64,000 bases of DNA. Source: Kaistia algarum. GTDB taxonomy: Bacteria; Pseudomonadota; Alphaproteobacteria; Rhizobiales; Kaistiaceae. The position numbers were made by a program, and so were the translations under genes. Shown here in pieces: positions 3,620 to 61,775 of the stretch (positions are counted from its first letter, which is position 1; each line of letters opens with the position of its first letter). The stretch is taken from NCBI RefSeq assembly GCF_026343945.1, contig NZ_JAPKNJ010000003.1:620001-684000 (forward strand). The letters are read 5' to 3'. The notes under the pieces are model-generated. The model was not told the origin of the DNA, ran no database searches, and saw nothing but the letters and a program-made list of their open reading frames with translations.

Positions 3620-4642
3620 TCAGCCAGCCTTGCGGCCCTCGCTCTGCCGCTCCAGCATCCAGCCGGGATATTCCGCCGGCAGGGCGCTTGCTGTGTCGAG
3701 CTTCTCGATCTCGTCCCCCGAAAGGGTCACGCCGACCGCGGCCAGGTTGTCGTCAAGCTGCTCGACTGTCTTGGCGCCGACGATCACCGTCGTCACGAAG
3801 GGCTTCTGCAGCAGATAGGCGAGGGCAATCTGCGCCACCGAGATGCCCTTCGCGCCGGCGATCTCGCGCATGACATCGACGACGTCGAAGGCGCGTTCCT
3901 TGTTGACCGGCGGAAAGTCGAACGAGGCGCGCCGGCCGCCGTCAGCCGATTTGCCGTCACGGTCATATTTGCCGGAGAGCAATCCGCCGGCGAGCGGGCT
4001 CCAGACCATCAGCCCGACCTTCTGGTCGAGCAGGAGCGGGGCGATCTCGCGCTCCAGATCGCGGCCGGCGATGGTGTAATAGGCCTGCAACGAGGCGAAG
4101 CGCGCCCAGCCGTGCGAATCGGCGATGCCGAGCGCCTTCATGATCTGCCAGGCAGCCCAGTTCGAAACGCCGACATAGCGCACATGACCCTGGCGCACGA
4201 GGTCGTCCAGCGCGCGTACCGTCTCCTCGACCGGCGTCAGCGGGTCGAAGCCGTGGATCTGGTACAGATCGATATAGTCGGTGCCGAGCCGCTTCAGGCT
4301 GGCCTTGACCGCGTCCATGATATGGCCGCGCGAAGCGCCGCGATCGTTCGGGCCCGGACCGACACTGCCGAGCGCCTTGGTGGCGAGCACGATGTCGGAG
4401 CGCTTGCGGCCGGAATTGACCATGGCCTTGCCGGTGATCTCCTCGGAAAGACCCTCCGAATAGACGTCGGCCGTGTCGATGAAATTGACGCCGGCCTCAA
4501 GGGCGCGGGCGACGATCTGGTCGGCGACCGACTGGTCGAGTTCGCCGATCGCCGTCCAGAAGCCGCGACCGCCAAAGGTCATGGTGCCGAGCGTGATTTC
4601 CGAGACGAGCAGGCCGGTGCCGCCGAGTTTGTTGTAGCGCAT
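3620..4642 (-). CDS. Aldo/keto reductase
   Basis: A 340-residue (alpha/beta)8 NAD(P)H-dependent reductase. The catalytic tetrad is visible: Asp56 and Tyr61 in the FIDTADVYSEG segment, Lys89 in LATKA, and His130 in YIDLYQIH. The start MRYNKLGGTGLLVSEI and the IPG-like phosphate-binding end (VIVGAKTVEQLDDN) fit the aryl-alcohol dehydrogenase-like AKR group. It lies on the same strand as two SDR genes, next to an AraC-type regulator, which suggests a role in carbonyl or aldehyde reduction. Substrate unknown. Confidence 0.9.
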   Translation of the reverse strand: MRYNKLGGTGLLVSEITLGTMTFGGRGFWTAIGELDQSVADQIVARALEAGVNFIDTADVYSEGLSEEITGKAMVNSGRKRSDIVLATKALGSVGPGPNDRGASRGHIMDAVKASLKRLGTDYIDLYQIHGFDPLTPVEETVRALDDLVRQGHVRYVGVSNWAAWQIMKALGIADSHGWARFASLQAYYTIAGRDLEREIAPLLLDQKVGLMVWSPLAGGLLSGKYDRDGKSADGGRRASFDFPPVNKERAFDVVDVMREIAGAKGISVAQIALAYLLQKPFVTTVIVGAKTVEQLDDNLAAVGVTLSGDEIEKLDTASALPAEYPGWMLERQSEGRKAG

Positions 4643-4701
4643 GGGATGATCCCTTCTTTGCTGTGAAATATTGTGGGAGCGAATGGCTTGGGAAGCGGCC
4701 G

Positions 4702-5559
4702 CTAGGCGATGCGGGCGACGGAGGCGTAGTCCCCGTCGGTCGAGATCGACAAGTCGCGATACTCCTGCAACTCCGTCCGCAACCTTTCGATCTTTTCCGC
4801 AACCATCTGGACGGCGTCGGAGCCGGCGGAGAAGCGGATGGGAGGCTTCGACAGCTTCACGAGATCGACGATGACCTTGCCGAGCTTGGCCGGATCGCCG
4901 GCCTGCTGACCGTTCCGGCCCTCGAAGCGGGCGCGAATCTGCGAGGAGATTCCGGCATAATCGTCGATCGAATTCCTTGCGAAACGGATCGAGCGCTGGT
5001 CGAGGAAATCGGTCCGGAACGAGCCGGGTCCGACGATCGTGACGGCGATCCCGAAGGCTTCGACCTCCTGCGCCAAAGCCTCCGAGAAGCCCTCGACGGC
5101 GAATTTGCTGGCGCTGTAGAGCGAGCCGCTGGGGGCGGTGCGGATGCCGCCGACAGAGGTGATGTTCAGGATATGGCCTGAACGCTGCCGCCGCATGGCG
5201 GGGAGCACGGCACGGGTGACGTCGAAGACGCCGAAGACGTTGGTGGCAAACTGGCGCTCGGCGTCCTCCGGGTCGGTCTCCTCGAACAGGCCGAGCTGAC
5301 CATAGCCGGCATTGTTGACGAGGACGTCGATGCGGCCGAAATGCGCCAGGGCCGCGTCGACGGCGGCGGCAATTTGCGCGCCGTCGGTCACATCGAGTGG
5401 CAGGGCCAGCAGAGCGTCGCCCGCATCGGCGAATGCCGAGCGAACCTTCTCCGCGCTCCGTCCCGTTGCGACGACGCTGTCGCCGGCGCCAAGCGCGGCC
5501 TTGACGATTTCCGCGCCGATGCCGCGCGTCGCGCCGGTGACGAACCAGATCCTGCTCAT
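4702..5559 (-). CDS. SDR family oxidoreductase
   Basis: A 285-residue short-chain dehydrogenase with TGATRGIG at residues 8-15, NNAG at 82-85, and the catalytic Ser135, Tyr148 and Lys152 (YSASK). The longer C-terminus, with the segment GPGSFRTDFL and a late helical tail, is typical of the oxidoreductases often annotated as retinol-dehydrogenase-like. It is divergent from the AraC-type regulator at 5712, with about 150 bases between the starts. That arrangement usually means the regulator controls this gene. The substrate cannot be named. Confidence 0.88.
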   Translation of the reverse strand: MSRIWFVTGATRGIGAEIVKAALGAGDSVVATGRSAEKVRSAFADAGDALLALPLDVTDGAQIAAAVDAALAHFGRIDVLVNNAGYGQLGLFEETDPEDAERQFATNVFGVFDVTRAVLPAMRRQRSGHILNITSVGGIRTAPSGSLYSASKFAVEGFSEALAQEVEAFGIAVTIVGPGSFRTDFLDQRSIRFARNSIDDYAGISSQIRARFEGRNGQQAGDPAKLGKVIVDLVKLSKPPIRFSAGSDAVQMVAEKIERLRTELQEYRDLSISTDGDYASVARIA

Positions 5560-53872: not shown

Positions 53873-54616
53873 TCAATCCCGGCCGTAGGGCGGGGGAGGG
53901 ATGGCCTGGTGGGCGGCGCGCAGTGCCGCCGACCAACGCTCGCGCAAATCGAGGAAATATTCATCGTTGCGGTCGATCCGGTGCGAGATCTCGACCGCGA
54001 TCGCATCCCGCCGAATGGTGGCGACGTCCACGGGCATGCCGACACCGAGATTGGAGCGGATTGTCGAATCCATCGAGACGAGGCCGAGCTTCATTGCCTC
54101 CTGCAAGCCGGTCTCGCTGGTGACGGCGCGATCGAGAATCGGCTTGCCATATTTGTGCTCGCCGATCTGAAGATAGGGCGTGTCGGCGGTCGCCTCGATG
54201 AAATTGCCGGCCGAATAGACCATGAACAGCCGCAGACGGCCGCCCTTGACCTGTCCGCCCAGCAGCATGGTGACATCGAAGCTCGCCGCCTGCTGCTCCA
54301 TGGATTTTCCGTGGATGCGATAGACCTCGCGGATCGCGCGGCCCACGAATTGCGCCACCTTGAACATGGTCGGGATCGTGAAGATCGTCTCGATCTCGCC
54401 GGTATCGGGATCGCGGATCCCTTCCGTCAGCACATTCAGCACCGACTGGCTCACCGCGAGATTGCCGGCGGTTGCGATAGCGATGACGCGCTCACCTTCC
54501 GTCTGGAAGAGGTGGAGCTTGCGGAAGGTCGCGATGTTGTCGAGGCCGGCGTTGGTACGCGTGTCGGCGATCATCACGAGACCCTCGCGCACGAGAATCC
54601 CAACGCAATAGGTCAT
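53873..54616 (-). CDS. Anbu-type proteasome homologue (Ntn-hydrolase fold)
   Basis: A 247-residue protein of the ancestral beta-subunit (Anbu) family. The start MTYCVGILVREGLVMIADTR places Thr2 right after the initiator Met, so removal of Met would expose an N-terminal Thr, as in proteasome beta subunits. The core segments LFMVYSAGNFIEA and VTSETGLQEAMKLGLVSMDS are typical. Anbu forms a helical or ring-like assembly with debated proteolytic activity. It is the last gene of an operon with transglutaminase-like, alpha-E and ATP-grasp genes. ATG 54616 is preceded by GGGGAAGG. Confidence 0.92.
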   Translation of the reverse strand: MTYCVGILVREGLVMIADTRTNAGLDNIATFRKLHLFQTEGERVIAIATAGNLAVSQSVLNVLTEGIRDPDTGEIETIFTIPTMFKVAQFVGRAIREVYRIHGKSMEQQAASFDVTMLLGGQVKGGRLRLFMVYSAGNFIEATADTPYLQIGEHKYGKPILDRAVTSETGLQEAMKLGLVSMDSTIRSNLGVGMPVDVATIRRDAIAVEISHRIDRNDEYFLDLRERWSAALRAAHQAIPPPPYGRD

Positions 54617-54695
54617 GTGGGTACCTTCCCCTGGGCCGACGGCGGATTGTCGGGACAAAGGGTACGAGTCGCAAGGCTAAAGGAGACGCAGTCCC

Positions 54696-55511
54696 CTACC
54701 TCTTTGCCGCACGGGCTTCCGTGACACGGATCGAGACCTTCGGCGGCGCCATTCCGTCGCCATAGGCGGCGCCGCGCACTGGCGCGGCCGCGACGCGGTC
54801 CAGCCCGATGGCGAGGCGGACATAGCGATCGGTCGGGCAGAGATTCATCGAGGCGTCGAAGCCGAGCCAGCCGACGCCCTCGACGAAGGCTTCGGCCCAG
54901 CCATGCTCGGCGACCGCCGGCTCCGCCTCTTCCGGCCAATGAAGATAGCCGCTGGCATAGCGGGCAGGGACGCCGAGATGGCGCGCCGCGGCGATGAAGA
55001 CATGGGCGATGGCGCGCGCGTCGCCCTTGCCCTCGGCGAAGGTTGCGATGGCGCTGTCGTCCTCGGTGTGGCCGACCTCGATCGCGCCGTTCACCGCCTC
55101 CATCAGCGAATGCATGCGCGACAGCGGATCGGCGGACGCGCGTTGGCCAAGCTGGGTCGCGAAATCGCGAATGGCCGGGCCGGACAGAGTCGAACTCGTG
55201 TCTCGCAGGAAGACGGAGATGGGGAAGCGTTCGGACTGGCCGCGAACCATGCCGGCCATGTCATGGGTCTCTACCTCGCCGAGCGCGGTGATGACCAGGC
55301 CGTCGAGTTTGCCCTCGGTGGTGAAGGATTGCAGCACATTGCCGAACGGATCGGTCGTCGTCGACAGGCGGCAGTCGTGATCGACCTCGATGCGCCAGTT
55401 GATGACGAACTGGCCGTCATGGCCGCGCGGGGTCAGGCGCAATGTCTGGATCGCGCCGCTTGCCGGCGGATCGTAGACATAGGTCGTTTCGTGAACGATA
55501 CGGAGGCGCAT
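54696..55511 (-). CDS. Transglutaminase-like protein lacking the catalytic cysteine
   Basis: A 271-residue protein with an N-terminal beta-rich domain (MRLRIVHETTYVYDPPASGA) and a transglutaminase-like core. Histidine and Asp of the triad are present (His203 in EHGWAEAF, Asp219 in WLGFDAS). The usual GVCxDxAH motif reads GDARAIAH at 163-170, so Ala165 sits where the nucleophilic Cys belongs. The DNA in this region is clean, with no frameshift. The protein is probably a non-catalytic binding or scaffolding member of the Anbu/ATP-grasp operon. It ends 79 bases before the anbu start. Confidence 0.88.
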   Translation of the reverse strand: MRLRIVHETTYVYDPPASGAIQTLRLTPRGHDGQFVINWRIEVDHDCRLSTTTDPFGNVLQSFTTEGKLDGLVITALGEVETHDMAGMVRGQSERFPISVFLRDTSSTLSGPAIRDFATQLGQRASADPLSRMHSLMEAVNGAIEVGHTEDDSAIATFAEGKGDARAIAHVFIAAARHLGVPARYASGYLHWPEEAEPAVAEHGWAEAFVEGVGWLGFDASMNLCPTDRYVRLAIGLDRVAAAPVRGAAYGDGMAPPKVSIRVTEARAAKR

Positions 55512-55523
55512 GAAACCGGTCCG

Positions 55524-56465
55524 TCAGGCGAGATACTGGTCGGTGATGGCCTGTCCGAGACGCCCGTTCTCGGCAATGAACTCCGTCAGGAATTCGTGCA
55601 GTCCCCCCTGGAAGACATCGTCGATGGTCGAGTTCTGCAGCCGATTGCGCGTCGAGCGGGCGACGCGCTGCGCCGGGCCCTGCCTGCCATAGGCAAGCGA
55701 AAGCTCGTCGAGATAAGCGCAGATATTGGCGTAACAGGCGGCGAGCGAGCGGGGCAATTGCTCGTTCAGCACGAGCAGGTCCGCCACCAGCCAGGGCTTC
55801 AGGCTCTCGCGATACACCCAATGATAGGCGGTATTGGCCGAGACCGAGCGCAGGATCGACGACCACTGGAAGAAGTCGAGCCCGCCGCCGACGCTCTCAT
55901 GCTCGGGCAGCAGGAGGTGATATTTGACGTCGAGGATGCGCGCCGTGTTGTCGGCCCGCTCGGTGAAGGCGCCGAGGCCGGAGAAGAAATAGACGTCGTT
56001 GCGCAACATCGTGCGGTTGGCGGAGCCGTCGAAGCGCAGCGAGGCCTCCTTCACATAGGTGAGGAAGTCGTTAAGCTGCAGGCGGTTGTGCGTGACGCCG
56101 TCGAAGCGCTTCAGTCCGAGCCAGGCCCCGTTGATCGCGTCCCACATTTCCGTGGTGAGCGCGGTGCGCACCGTGCGCGCGTTGACGCGGGCCCGCTCGA
56201 GGCACGAACGGATCGATGACGGGTTCTTCGGCGAGAAGGCGAGAAACTCGACCACGTTCTCCGCCGTCGCCGGCTTGCCGAGCGAGGTGAAGAGGCCGAG
56301 CGAGCCGGTCGCTGCGACGGCGGATTCCCACTCGTTCGAGCCACCGGCATAGGAGATCGGCATGGCGGCGAGGCGGTTGGCCGCGTCGACGATGCGGGCG
56401 GTATTCTCGGCGCGCTCGACATAGCGCGCGAGCCAGAACAAATTGTCGGCGGTACGGCTCAGCAC
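55524..56465 (-). CDS. Alpha-E domain protein
   Basis: A 313-residue all-helical protein starting MLSRTADNLFWLARYVERAE, the alpha-E (DUF403) signature with its conserved Tyr, Glu and Arg. This domain is regularly fused to, or encoded next to, circularly permuted ATP-grasp ligases and is thought to take part in making or modifying a peptide tag. No catalytic activity is proven. Located 18 bases after the ATP-grasp gene and 12 before the transglutaminase-like gene, in the same operon. Confidence 0.9.
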   Translation of the reverse strand: MLSRTADNLFWLARYVERAENTARIVDAANRLAAMPISYAGGSNEWESAVAATGSLGLFTSLGKPATAENVVEFLAFSPKNPSSIRSCLERARVNARTVRTALTTEMWDAINGAWLGLKRFDGVTHNRLQLNDFLTYVKEASLRFDGSANRTMLRNDVYFFSGLGAFTERADNTARILDVKYHLLLPEHESVGGGLDFFQWSSILRSVSANTAYHWVYRESLKPWLVADLLVLNEQLPRSLAACYANICAYLDELSLAYGRQGPAQRVARSTRNRLQNSTIDDVFQGGLHEFLTEFIAENGRLGQAITDQYLA

Positions 56466-56483
56466 GGCGATGAACTCCGGAAA

Positions 56484-57902
56484 TTACGCATCGAGCACCC
56501 ATGTATCCTTGGTGCCGCCGCCCTGGCTCGAATTCACCACCAGCGACCCTTCCTTGAGCGCGACGCGGGTAAGCCCTCCCGGCACGATCCGCACCTTGTC
56601 GCCACCTGTCAGAACGAAGGGGCGCAGATCAACATGGCGCGGCGCGATGCCGGATTCGACGAATGTAGGCGAGGTCGAGAGCGCCAGCGTCGGCTGGGCG
56701 ATGAAATCGTCCGGATCGGCCTTCAGCTTGGCGGCGAATTCGGCGATCGATTTCTTGTCGGCTGCCGGGCCGATCAGCATGCCATAGCCGCCGGAACCGG
56801 CCACTTCCTTCACCACCATCTCGGGGAGATGATCGAGAACATATTTCAGCGCGTCGGGTTCGCGGCAGCGCCAGGTCGGCACGTTCTTCAGGATCGGCTC
56901 CTCGCCGAGATAGAACCGCACGATCTCAGGCATGTAGGAATAGACGGCCTTGTCATCGGCCACGCCCGTTCCGACGGCATTGGAGAGCGTGATGTTGCCG
57001 GCACGATAGGCGCTCATCAATCCGGGAACGCCGAGGGCCGAATCGGGTCGGAAAGTCAGCGGATCGAGGAAGTCGTCGTCGAGGCGGCGATAGAGGACAT
57101 CGACGCGCTTCGGCCCCTCGGTCGTGCGCATGTAGACGACATTGTCGCGCACCTGCAGGTCGCGTCCCTCGACCAACTCGATGCCGAGCTTGTCGGCCAG
57201 GAACGAGTGCTCGTAGAAGGCGCTGTTGTAGGGCCCGGGGGTGAGCAAAGCGACTGTCGGATCGGCGGGGGCCGAGCGCGGCGCCACGGATTTCAGCGTC
57301 GCGAGCAGAGCATCGGGATAATTCTCGACCGGCTCGATGCGCTGTTCGGCGAAGAGGTCGGGGAACAGCCGCATCATGACTTCGCGGTTCTCCAGCATGT
57401 AGGAGACGCCGGAAGGCGTGCGGGCGTTGTCCTCCAGAACGTAGAACGTATCTGGGTCGATGCGGACGATGTCGATGCCGGCGATCATGACATAGATGTC
57501 GTGGGCGAGCTTCAGCCCTGCCATCTCGGGGCGATAATAGGGATTCCGATAGATCAGGTCCTCCGGCACGATACCGGCGCGCAGGATCTCGCCCTTCGAA
57601 TAGATATCGGCGAGGAAGGCGTTCAGCGCCTTAGTCCGCTGCTCTAGCCCACGAGCGAGGATCGTCCATTCGGGTTTGGTCAGGATGCGCGGAATGATAT
57701 CGAACGGGATCAGCCGCTCCTCGCCCGCCTCGTCGCCATAGACGTTGAAGGTGATACCAACCCTGCGAAACAGGAGCTCGGCCTCGGCGCGCCGCGTGGC
57801 GAGAAGATCGGGCGGCGTCGAATCGAGCCAACGTTTCAGCACCTCGTAACCCGGCCGGCAGCCATCGCTGCTTGCACCCATCTCATCGAAGGCAACGACC
57901 AT
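56484..57902 (-). CDS. Circularly permuted ATP-grasp protein
   Basis: A 472-residue circularly permuted ATP-grasp family enzyme (DUF404/DUF407-type). Landmarks include GYEVLKRWLDSTPPDLLATR, NPYYRPEMAGLKLAHD, VLEDNARTPSGVSYMLENRE with the metal-binding EDN, and VVKEVAGSGGYGMLIGP. It is predicted to form an amide bond using ATP, possibly building a peptide from amino acids. Start at ATG 57902; the frame is open 35 codons further upstream without family similarity. It is the first gene of the operon with alpha-E, transglutaminase-like and Anbu. Confidence 0.9.
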   Translation of the reverse strand: MVVAFDEMGASSDGCRPGYEVLKRWLDSTPPDLLATRRAEAELLFRRVGITFNVYGDEAGEERLIPFDIIPRILTKPEWTILARGLEQRTKALNAFLADIYSKGEILRAGIVPEDLIYRNPYYRPEMAGLKLAHDIYVMIAGIDIVRIDPDTFYVLEDNARTPSGVSYMLENREVMMRLFPDLFAEQRIEPVENYPDALLATLKSVAPRSAPADPTVALLTPGPYNSAFYEHSFLADKLGIELVEGRDLQVRDNVVYMRTTEGPKRVDVLYRRLDDDFLDPLTFRPDSALGVPGLMSAYRAGNITLSNAVGTGVADDKAVYSYMPEIVRFYLGEEPILKNVPTWRCREPDALKYVLDHLPEMVVKEVAGSGGYGMLIGPAADKKSIAEFAAKLKADPDDFIAQPTLALSTSPTFVESGIAPRHVDLRPFVLTGGDKVRIVPGGLTRVALKEGSLVVNSSQGGGTKDTWVLDA

Positions 57903-58840
57903 CAGCGCGCGATCTCCGTCTCGTCTCCAGGCCTTCCCGGCAAGCCGCATGCCAACGGCGCTATCGGTAGGCTTTTCGTCAACCGCGAAGCAGCCAACGG
58001 GATCCATTGCATATGAGCCGGGCAGAATTGGCTAGAGGCAATCGAAGAAATCACACGGCACGGAGTGACGCGGCGCGAAAGGCGGCAATTGCTTAAGGAT
58101 TGGGCGGATGGCATGCCGCTTCCGGCCAAGGCTTCGACGGCGATCGATAGGATGTGGATGCAGTAACCTGCGGACGGAGCAACCGGTCTTCACATTGAGA
58201 TCGGAAGCTACGACCGGGATTGCCAATCCTGACTGAATGAGCCTTCGTGCCGGAAGGCGCCCGCTTCTACGAGGCTTGAACAAGCGATCCGGTTTGCGAT
58301 GGCGCCGACGGTCGTCCGCGACACACACAGATTTCAAAATGCGTCAGTGTAGCCGTCGGATGCTCACACCGTTCGCTCGACCGGCGGCGTAGCGGACCCG
58401 TGCGGTCGAAGAACTCGAGAGAGCGCAACGTAGATTGCGTCCTGTCGTCCAACGTGGCTCTCATCGCCATCGACGTACCATAGCCGGTCGATGGGCAAAG
58501 AGAAGAACGTATCGATTCAGTATTAACTAGTAGTTTATCAGAAAAAATTCGTATCGGAATAAATAATAATAGTAATATTTTAATATTAATCGTATGACGT
58601 AGAAAACTATAACCTAGGGAGTGTGAAATATTTCGTTAACAGCCGCTATTTCACCCTAGCCAAGACGGCGCGTGCCCTCGTCCATCCGGTTCAAGTAGTC
58701 CAGTCTCCGGCTTCGGCAGCGCGCGTCGAGAGCCTCGAATTTCCGCTTGGCGGGGCTGGCGTTGCCCCTTGCAGATATGCGAATCTGCGCTGCCGGACCC
58801 TATATTGGGTCAGGGGAAATCAAGGCAGGGAACACAATCG
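57903..58840. other. Gene-free region with an AT-rich island
   Basis: About 940 bases between the divergent ATP-grasp and oxygenase genes with no convincing coding sequence; small frames here lack family similarity or ribosome-binding sites. The left part has ordinary GC content. From about 58500 to 58620 the sequence turns strongly AT-rich, with repeated short AT runs (AATAAATAATAATAG), unlike the rest of the window. It must contain the promoters of both flanking genes. The AT island could be a nucleoid-protein or silencer target, or foreign DNA. Confidence 0.6.
58623..58654. repeat. Inverted repeat next to the AT-rich island
   Basis: GTGAAATA at 58623-58630 is repeated inverted as TATTTCAC at 58647-58654, with a 16-base spacer. 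The arms are 8 bases and exact. It lies about 190 bases upstream of the oxygenase start and could be a regulator-binding site or a weak hairpin. Confidence 0.4.
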
Positions 58841-59716
58841 ATGACTTCGGTGAATGAGGTGGTCGCCGGCGAAAGCGGCGTGATTTCCGTCGATTACCGT
58901 GACCCTAACGCGCCGGCGCTGTTTGCGCAGTCGCTGCGTCAGTCGGGCTTTGGCGTGGTCCGCAACCACCCCATTCCGCAAGATCTGGTCGAGGAAATCT
59001 ACGCCGAGTGGCTCGCCTTCTTCGACAGCGACGACAAGTTCAAATATCTCGTCGGCGAGAAGCATGACGGCTATTTCCCGCCGCATCAGGCGGAGACCGC
59101 GAAGACCGGCAAGAAGCGCGACCTCAAGGAGTATTTCCACATCTATGCCTGGGGGCGCTACCCGGACGAGGTCTCCGACGCGGCGCGCCGCTATTCCGAT
59201 CTCGCCGGTGCGCTGGCTTCCGAATTGCTGGGGTGGGTCCAGGACAACACGCCGGACGAGGTCAAGGCGCGCTTTTCGGTGCCGCTGCCGGAGATGGTTC
59301 GCGGCAGCTCCGGCTCGCTATTCCGCATCCTGCGATATCCGCCGCTGACGGGCGAGGAGGACGCGGACGCGGTTCGGGCCCATGCGCACGAGGACATCAA
59401 TCTCTTGACCATCCTACCCTCTGCGAACGAGCGTGGGCTGCAATTGGTGAACGCCAACGGCGAATGGGTCGACGTGCCGTTCGATTTCGGAACGCTGGTG
59501 ATCAACACCGGCGACATGCTTCAGGAAGCGTCCGGTGGCTATTACCGCTCGACGACTCACCGGGTCGTCAATCCGACGGGCGACGCTGCGAAGCGCTCGC
59601 GCATCTCGATCCCGATGTTCCAGCAGCCGCGACCCGACGTCGTTCTTTCTGAACGCCATACGGCGGGCAGCTATCTGGCCGAAAGGCTGGCGGAATTGTC
59701 GCGGAACAACAAGTAG
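58841..59716 (+). CDS. 2-oxoglutarate/Fe(II)-dependent oxygenase, isopenicillin N synthase-like
   Basis: A 291-residue protein of the IPNS/2OG oxygenase family. The facial triad is visible: the HxD pair in AHAHEDINLL and the distal His in TTHRVVNP, followed by RSRISIPMF with the 2-oxoglutarate-binding RxS. The N-terminal GFGVVRNHPIPQDLVEEIYA is the usual non-catalytic helix region. Substrate unknown. ATG 58841 is preceded by GGCAGGGA; a longer upstream reading lacks family similarity. Confidence 0.86.
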   Translation: MTSVNEVVAGESGVISVDYRDPNAPALFAQSLRQSGFGVVRNHPIPQDLVEEIYAEWLAFFDSDDKFKYLVGEKHDGYFPPHQAETAKTGKKRDLKEYFHIYAWGRYPDEVSDAARRYSDLAGALASELLGWVQDNTPDEVKARFSVPLPEMVRGSSGSLFRILRYPPLTGEEDADAVRAHAHEDINLLTILPSANERGLQLVNANGEWVDVPFDFGTLVINTGDMLQEASGGYYRSTTHRVVNPTGDAAKRSRISIPMFQQPRPDVVLSERHTAGSYLAERLAELSRNNK

Positions 59717-61547: not shown

Positions 61548-61775
61548 TCAGATCAGCTTCAATCCCTTGAAGCTGGCATGGCCGTTGCGGCCGACGATGA
61601 TGTGGTCGTGGACGGCGATGCCGAGCGGGGTTGCGATGTCGACGATGGTCTTGGTCATCTGGATGTCGGCGCGCGAGGGGGTCGGGTCGCCTGAGGGATG
61701 GTTATGGACGAGTACGATGGCGGTCGAGGACAGTTCGAGCGCGCGCTTCACCACTTCGCGCGGATAGACGGGGGT
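61548..61775 (-). pseudogene. radC: radC remnant, 5'-truncated (C-terminal JAMM part only)
   Basis: About 75 codons matching the end of RadC, beginning around [17 protein letters not shown]. The JAMM metal-binding motif [11 protein letters not shown] is intact, and the gene keeps its native-looking end [11 protein letters not shown] and stop. The N-terminal two thirds, including the helix-hairpin-helix part, are missing. Upstream the sequence runs directly into gtrA, and no start codon with a ribosome-binding site serves this piece. Full-length RadC is about 220-250 residues, so this is a deletion or rearrangement product. Confidence 0.85.

Follow-up and report, generated by a model that had tools for sequence, protein, structure and literature searches.

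We have examined a four-gene operon of Kaistia algarum (Hyphomicrobiales, Kaistiaceae), located in a segment of 64,000 nucleotides from contig NZ_JAPKNJ010000003.1 (positions 620,001 to 684,000; hereafter, the window), which encodes the proteasome homologue Anbu together with a circularly permuted ATP-grasp protein, an Alpha-E protein and a transglutaminase-like protein (TG). The TG of this operon has Ala where the nucleophilic Cys is expected. The reading we favor, to which we assign a probability of about one half, is that this is an Anbu operon with a Cys-less TG and a core of ATP-grasp, Alpha-E and Anbu, driven by sigma-54 polymerase, probably in nitrogen shortage, and that the TG step is likely supplied by a second locus of the DUF2126 type. 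The four-gene operon type and the proposal that it serves a peptide tag are already known, and the general point is not new; the missing TG Cys, the sigma-54 site and the second locus go beyond an earlier reading of the same DNA (hereafter, the original prediction), which had named the four genes and mentioned the tag proposal. The features concerned, all on the minus strand of the window, are the following.

57902-56484, minus strand: circularly permuted ATP-grasp protein, 472 amino acids, predicted amide ligase (Pfam; solved relative 3n6x)
56465-55524, minus strand: Alpha-E protein, 313 amino acids, GTG start (Pfam PF04168; structure model)
55511-54696, minus strand: TG, 271 amino acids, without catalytic Cys (Pfam; alignments; model)
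55017-55019, minus strand: TG codon 165, Ala at the nucleophile position (alignments)
54903-54905, minus strand: TG codon 203, triad His kept (alignment)
54855-54857, minus strand: TG codon 219, triad Asp kept (alignment)
54616-53873, minus strand: Anbu, 247 amino acids, Met-Thr start, Asp18 and Lys33 kept (Pfam; solved Anbu relatives; residue counts)

We observed the Transglut_core domain and the transglutaminase fold in the TG, but in the column of the catalytic Cys of the Cys-His-Asp triad there is Ala165, and because of this replacement the Anbu-operon TG is predicted to be a pseudo-enzyme. The genome has five Transglut_core matches, of which four keep the Cys motif (GVCQD, GSCRD, GTCRD and GVCRD) and only the Anbu-operon TG is without it. 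The Cys has been lost from this TG in 13 of the 14 genomes of the genus, in a change from GVCQD to GD-x-RA that is centered on the loop, with a few adjoining columns also differing; among these 13 members D164, R166 and A167 are invariant and residue 165 is Ala, Pro or Gly. An AlphaFold model predicts the TG fold with confidence (mean predicted local distance difference test score, pLDDT, 94), residue 165 lying at the beginning of a core helix, and the best Foldseek match of the model is 3isr, a putative cysteine protease (E value 2e-19). The database gave 1,443 matches to the TG; among the 120 best, the first 27 were all without Cys and 86 of the next 93 had it. The nearest named TGs were those of Kaistia dalseonensis, K. 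granuli and an organism labelled Mesorhizobium. Several public records label members of the Cys-less cluster (P0001-P0027) as transglutaminase-like putative cysteine proteases, which for proteins without the Cys is a mislabelling.

It could be argued that the TG is still an enzyme, using another nucleophile or another chemistry, and that the classical four-enzyme cross-linking scheme holds. Such an argument can draw on the retained His203 and Asp219 and on the transglutaminase fold, but it must contend with the Ala, Pro or Gly found at residue 165 and with the remaining cysteines, at 47 and 226, which by eye are also present in the consensus of the mixed alignment, so that no new Cys replaces the lost one. 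We regard it as very improbable. Since Ala stands in place of the nucleophile, the cross-linking part of the tag idea mentioned in the original prediction does not suit this copy.

Cys-less TGs were also found in other operons. Among the fetched loci, TGs located between Alpha-E and Anbu had the Cys in 128 of 153 cases and lacked it in 25; in a wider set of 157, which takes in a few TG-like genes outside that interval, 131 had the Cys and 26 did not, and in those 26 His203 was kept in 92% and Asp219 in 100%. Duplicate loci of one contig (L058, L063, L064 and L087; L074 for L056) were removed from both counts and from the count of 156 upstream regions given below, and seven family loci (L031-L037, of which L031 repeats L057 and L032 repeats L119), all with Cys, are outside the 153; the operon of G021, a genus genome discussed below, is one of the seven. 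In the phylum/order set 31 of the 32 TGs scored had the Cys, the exception belonging to the order of the window organism. Within our sample Cys loss was confined to Alphaproteobacteria apart from L108, an operon of Anbu type in a metagenome-assembled genome labelled Marinimicrobia, with an Anbu 64% identical to that of the window.

We then placed 141 operons on a tree rooted at its midpoint. To be kept, a locus had to carry the ATP-grasp, Alpha-E and Anbu genes in this order and to have been scored for DUF2126; loci that were solitary, truncated or untested were excluded, and L121, which has a Cys-less TG and is DUF2126-positive, was one of these. The dead-or-absent state of the TG formed 18 maximal clades, with two reversals inferred, and 30 bootstrap trees gave 18-20 such clades, 9-11 of them with a dead TG. 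A basal TG-less group (L248, L256, L258 and L277) may represent the ancestral state or another architecture. In the 141 operons the conserved Asp and Lys of Anbu were present in all, and its Thr in 140, with Ser in one, and these residues persist irrespective of the state of the TG (active, dead or absent). The ATP-grasp protein has 121 near-invariant columns; of the charged or polar residues among those listed, each was retained in 39-43 of the 43 operons whose TG is dead or missing.

Ratios of nonsynonymous to synonymous substitution (dN/dS) in the 13 genus members were 0.26-0.27 for the TG, 0.09 for ATP-grasp, 0.14 for Alpha-E and 0.15-0.16 for Anbu. The dead TG is under purifying selection, though it is less constrained than its partners. 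For Cys-bearing TGs the values were 0.16 in Bradyrhizobium and 0.13 in Microvirga; a comparison with six distant family relatives having an active TG (0.43 for the TG and 0.23-0.33 for the other genes) says little. These values bear on the proposal that the TG is a decaying relic, functionless since the loss of its Cys, and that the other three proteins work without a TG step. A relic is what one would expect from a dN/dS two to three times that of the partner genes, from the class-level operons that have no TG whatever (11/80), and from the pairing on the tree of L108, with its dead TG, and its neighbor L131, with none. It would not be expected to keep a full-length open frame in all 13 genus operons at a dN/dS of 0.26-0.27, to conserve the replaced loop itself (GD-x-RA) along with the His and Asp, or to retain a fold that is predicted with high confidence. 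On balance we consider decay somewhat unlikely.

Where the missing step might be supplied is suggested by a second locus, L008, elsewhere in the same genome, which encodes a TG-DUF2126 fusion of 1110 amino acids, an ATP-grasp-Alpha-E fusion of 836 amino acids and a separate TG of 293 amino acids. It thus shares the circularly permuted ATP-grasp, Alpha-E and TG families with the Anbu operon, but differs in having the putative amidoligase DUF2126, in keeping the TG Cys, and in the absence of Anbu from the 17 kb fetched. We fetched 20 such second loci, of which 18 came from genomes whose operon TG is dead or absent; the DUF2126-fused TG kept its Cys in 20/20, and so did the separate TG in all 17 cases in which one was found. 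In the first set of genomes, those with a dead or absent operon TG comprised 32 DUF2126-positive and 3 negative, and those with an active TG 8 positive and 34 negative. Because this first set had itself suggested the DUF2126 idea, a fresh alphaproteobacterial sample was taken, in which 8 TG-less operons were DUF2126-positive and none negative, while active TGs went with 1 positive and 16 negative (p = 8e-6, uncorrected for kinship). That sample used 30 of 41 new Anbu-bearing genomes, 11 being omitted (mostly at about 34-38% identity), and 25 were scored, 5 being excluded because they had no Alpha-E within 1.5 kb; six or more of the 30 belong to genera also represented in the first set. Over all 141 operons, 37 of 43 TG-dead or TG-less operons were DUF2126-positive versus 35 of 98 active ones (p = 2e-8, uncorrected for kinship). 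When the tree is taken into account, 12 of 16 inferred TG losses fell on DUF2126-positive branches, with 34-40% expected (p = 0.001-0.004). The contrast is seen among close relatives as well: in genus g218, G301 has an active TG and is DUF2126-negative and G762 has no TG and is DUF2126-positive, and families f33 and f110 repeat it.

Several observations touch on the second locus in other ways. In 5 of 60 phylum/order genomes (G385, G365, G405, G409 and G359) Anbu has a DUF2126 match on its own strand less than 1 kb away. DUF2126 matches in at least two pieces were seen in G657, G679, G359, G405, G409 and G551, and some second loci may therefore be split or broken. A gene for a 2-oxoglutarate-Fe(II) dioxygenase adjoins both loci of the K. 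algarum genome (window 58811-59716, plus strand, and L008:4184-5155, plus strand), the two products being 28.5% identical to each other; among fetched loci such a gene was seen on the Anbu side in L040-L043 and on the DUF2126 side in L218, L281 and L282, most loci being too short to tell.

We examined the sequence upstream of the ATP-grasp gene for regulatory elements, with the following results.

57954-57939, minus strand: TGGCATGCGGCTTGCC, sigma-54-type -24/-12 site, 36 bases before the ATP-grasp ATG (consensus match, conservation)
58041-58028, minus strand: TTGCCTCTAGCCAA, imperfect dyad in a conserved block, candidate activator site (genus alignment)

The ATG at 57902 is the conserved ATP-grasp start in a 14-row upstream alignment of the genus; other in-frame ATGs occur upstream at 58007 and 57950. 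In the same alignment TGGCATGCGGCTTGCC is conserved, with both the -24 and -12 elements, the GG and GC cores and the right spacing. The pattern TGGCAYRN4TTGC occurs twice in the window (0.05 expected), the other exact match being at 61574-61588 on the plus strand; a looser pattern, allowing three mismatches, was not enriched window-wide (99 versus 92.7 expected). With the GG and GC cores fixed and at most 2 mismatches, sites were found upstream of 64 of 82 family and named loci, a count that includes some duplicate loci (2 on the reverse strand and 1.4 in shuffled sequence). The corresponding figures were 17 of 52 at class level (2 and 1.4) and 17 of 35 at phylum/order level (0 and 0.7). After duplicates were removed, such sites were present in 91 of 156 upstream regions versus 73 of 3,916 segments taken from real downstream DNA as background, and, at no more than 1 mismatch, in 78 of 156 versus 5 of 3,916. 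We infer that TGGCATGCGGCTTGCC is used as a promoter, and the operon is predicted from these sequence comparisons to be switched on by sigma-54 polymerase. The dyad takes a perfect form, TTGGCACTAGCCAA, in five other genus members; elsewhere it was found in 49 of 156 upstream regions versus 24.6 expected, a weak excess, with spacing that differs between loci.

For comparison with published regulons, we take COG3484 to be Anbu. A sigma-54 regulon of alpha-, beta- and gammaproteobacteria lists a proteasome-type protease, COG3484 (PMC12316311); sigma-54 control of Anbu is thus already published, and the addition here is a located, conserved site. The Pseudomonas putida operon PP_2685-2688 is induced in nitrogen limitation and is likely controlled by NtrC (PMC7801951), and a Burkholderia cluster that encodes DUF404/407, DUF403, a TG and a large TG-domain protein is dependent on sigma-54 and NtrC (PMC5491218). 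The same domains are linked with urea-metabolism domains in marine metagenomes (PMC3597751). We take the Burkholderia cluster to be probably of the DUF2126 type because of its large TG-domain protein; on that assumption the two locus types would each respond to nitrogen shortage, though in separate species.

The gene identities, order and spacing given in the original prediction were confirmed by Pfam matches and coordinates. The four genes are co-directional, in the order ATP-grasp, Alpha-E, TG, Anbu, with gaps of 18, 12 and 79 bases, respectively; co-transcription is likely in view of these gaps and of the single conserved promoter-like site that precedes the ATP-grasp gene. The ATP-grasp protein matched PF14403 (CP_ATPgrasp_2; 554 bits, cut-off 32) and PF04174 (CP_ATPgrasp_1; 514 bits), and the solved structure 3n6x at an E value of 2e-201. 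Alpha-E matched PF04168 (320 bits, cut-off 20.8) and is predicted to be all-helical (mean pLDDT 89). The TG matched PF08379 (Bact_transglu_N; 74 bits) and PF01841 (Transglut_core; 60 bits, cut-off 23). Anbu matched PF00227 (Proteasome; 29 bits) and the solved Anbu chains 5loy, 5nyj, 5nyf, 5nyw and 5lox (E values 4e-81 to 1e-65); it has Thr directly after Met, as predicted originally, and its Thr2, Asp18 and Lys33 correspond to the candidate residues Thr1, Asp17 and Lys32(33) named in PMC6376114.

In the family, 27 of 28 genomes had an Anbu gene. At the class level, where 80 loci were fetched of 99 places other than the window, all four genes occurred in order in 42, ATP-grasp, Alpha-E and Anbu in sequence without an intervening TG in 11, Anbu only in 18 and other arrangements in 9; these are in-order counts, strand-blind labelling giving 43 four-gene and 11 three-gene loci. 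Among 60 phylum/order loci, Anbu was alone in 17, and 6 had the other three genes' order without a TG between (ATP-grasp, Alpha-E, Anbu). The association is therefore recurrent, as the original prediction had it, and exceeds chance, and the order is conserved, although on independent occurrence the answer is mixed, given the solitary Anbu genes and the missing TGs. Taken as a whole, that interpretation stands for the genes, their order and their recurrence, and fails for cross-linking in this copy; on sequence grounds, the operon appears to be a variant of a known system that lacks the TG Cys and has a candidate partner locus. The solitary loci (18/80 and 17/60) would suit a simpler view, namely plain proteolysis in nitrogen shortage, with Anbu an ordinary protease, the linked ligase genes separate from it, and neither a tag nor a shared pathway involved; PMC5666114 also reports inhibitor binding by Anbu, and its authors favor a role in protein degradation. 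That view has difficulty with the loci in which the TG is missing and yet ATP-grasp, Alpha-E and Anbu keep their order (11/80 and 6/60), and with the finding that Anbu from Yersinia, Hyphomicrobium and Pseudomonas had no peptidase activity on proteasome substrates (PMC6376114), and we think it decidedly unlikely.

Some arrangements were unusual. The Anbu-like genes of L208-L216 are divergent (about 30-37% identity), and the stretches fetched around them gave no match to ATP-grasp, Alpha-E or TG; they possibly represent another Anbu subtype. In L207, L217, L250 and L253 the ATP-grasp gene (with Alpha-E in 3 of the 4) and Anbu lie head to head on opposite strands. L051 has an inserted gene at 4457-5003, RidA-type by eye (no family search was run), and in L095 and L091 (Bradyrhizobium) an antisense gene lies between TG and Anbu, a peptide-binding transport protein by eye, again with no family search run.

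ATP-grasp proteins form amide bonds by way of acyl phosphates. In the mechanism we favor, the ATP-grasp protein, with Alpha-E, would form an amide bond on a peptide or protein, and Anbu would hydrolyse an amide bond in the product or in its target, so that a ligase (ATP-grasp plus Alpha-E) would be set against a hydrolase, with the TG an accessory that another locus can provide. The missing TG step would likely have moved to the DUF2126-type locus of the same genome, and the dead TG, in view of its purifying selection and its new conserved GD-x-RA loop, may have stayed as a substrate-binding or assembly subunit. NtrC would be the first candidate for activator of the promoter, given its connection with related operons of other proteobacteria. 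Phosphate release from ATP is reported for the ATP-grasp protein encoded in the Anbu operon of Yersinia (PMC6376114).

A number of results weigh against the reading of the operon as Cys-less, sigma-54-driven and complemented by a DUF2126 locus. DUF2126 coexists with an active operon TG in 35 operons, and is therefore insufficient for TG loss, and 6 TG-dead or TG-less operons are in genomes without a DUF2126 match. The phylum/order and named-loci sets did not support the link (5 of 8 TG-dead or TG-less versus 27 of 56 active, p = 0.71); the named-loci set is largely Bradyrhizobium and Microvirga, its active, DUF2126-positive loci being mainly from Bradyrhizobium and Afipia. With one count per homogeneous clade, p rises to 0.019 (bootstrap median 0.011, worst 0.040). 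No sigma-54 site (at most 3 mismatches) was found in 900 bases around the start of the genome's own DUF2126 locus. The dN/dS of the dead TG exceeds that of the Cys-bearing TGs of Bradyrhizobium and Microvirga, a difference that partial decay would equally produce. The 14th genus genome, G021, has a divergent operon with a Cys-bearing TG; this assembly comprises 720 contigs with 6% contamination, its Anbu is only 50% identical to that of the window, and the operon may be on a foreign contig. Finally, Yersinia Anbu formed no stable complex with its operon partners and showed no peptidase activity (PMC6376114). We read the alphaproteobacterial association to mean that DUF2126 allows the operon TG to be lost without making its loss necessary, with joint horizontal transfer and genome size as possible confounders.

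A bolder version, which we offer tentatively and at less than even odds, is that the Anbu and DUF2126 operons make up the two halves of a single amide-ligation pathway for nitrogen starvation and have an interchangeable TG in common, such that owning the DUF2126 half frees the Anbu-side TG; some lineages would then delete the freed TG, and Kaistia would make of it a non-catalytic, peptide-binding subunit with the GD-x-RA loop.

Earlier comparative work on the Anbu operon is reportedly that of Iyer et al. in 2009. The operon described in PMC5666114 and PMC6376114 has the same four genes in the same order and shares the Thr, Asp and Lys of Anbu, and differs in that the TG here is without its nucleophile; these papers give the four-gene form and the peptide-tag proposal, with no confirmed function, and the parts available mention neither inactive TGs, nor TG-less operons, nor a link between TG state and DUF2126. 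P. putida PP_2685-2688 (PMC7801951) and the nitrogen-limitation-induced, sigma-54- and NtrC-dependent B. cenocepacia I35_5080-83 (PMC5491218) have related gene sets, both being induced in nitrogen limitation; the available parts of the latter paper mention no proteasome homologue, and those of neither paper cover the TG Cys. In the Rlo system of Pseudomonas, too, a single operon encodes a TG that is inactive, together with an ATP-grasp protein and a protease, but its TG is periplasmic and membrane-bound and its protease a secreted aspartic one; the operon is not homologous, and the likeness is one of analogy only (PMC12239564).

In summary, given the repeated loss of the TG, transglutaminase chemistry on the Anbu operon is dispensable, and the loss of TG or nucleophile in about 18-20 clades, with the three partners kept, shows which parts should be assayed together. 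The promoter points to a growth condition, and the DUF2126 link, should it hold, would identify a specific genetic interaction. The name Anbu dates from 2008, and these results would narrow the function of a system that has long been unexplained.

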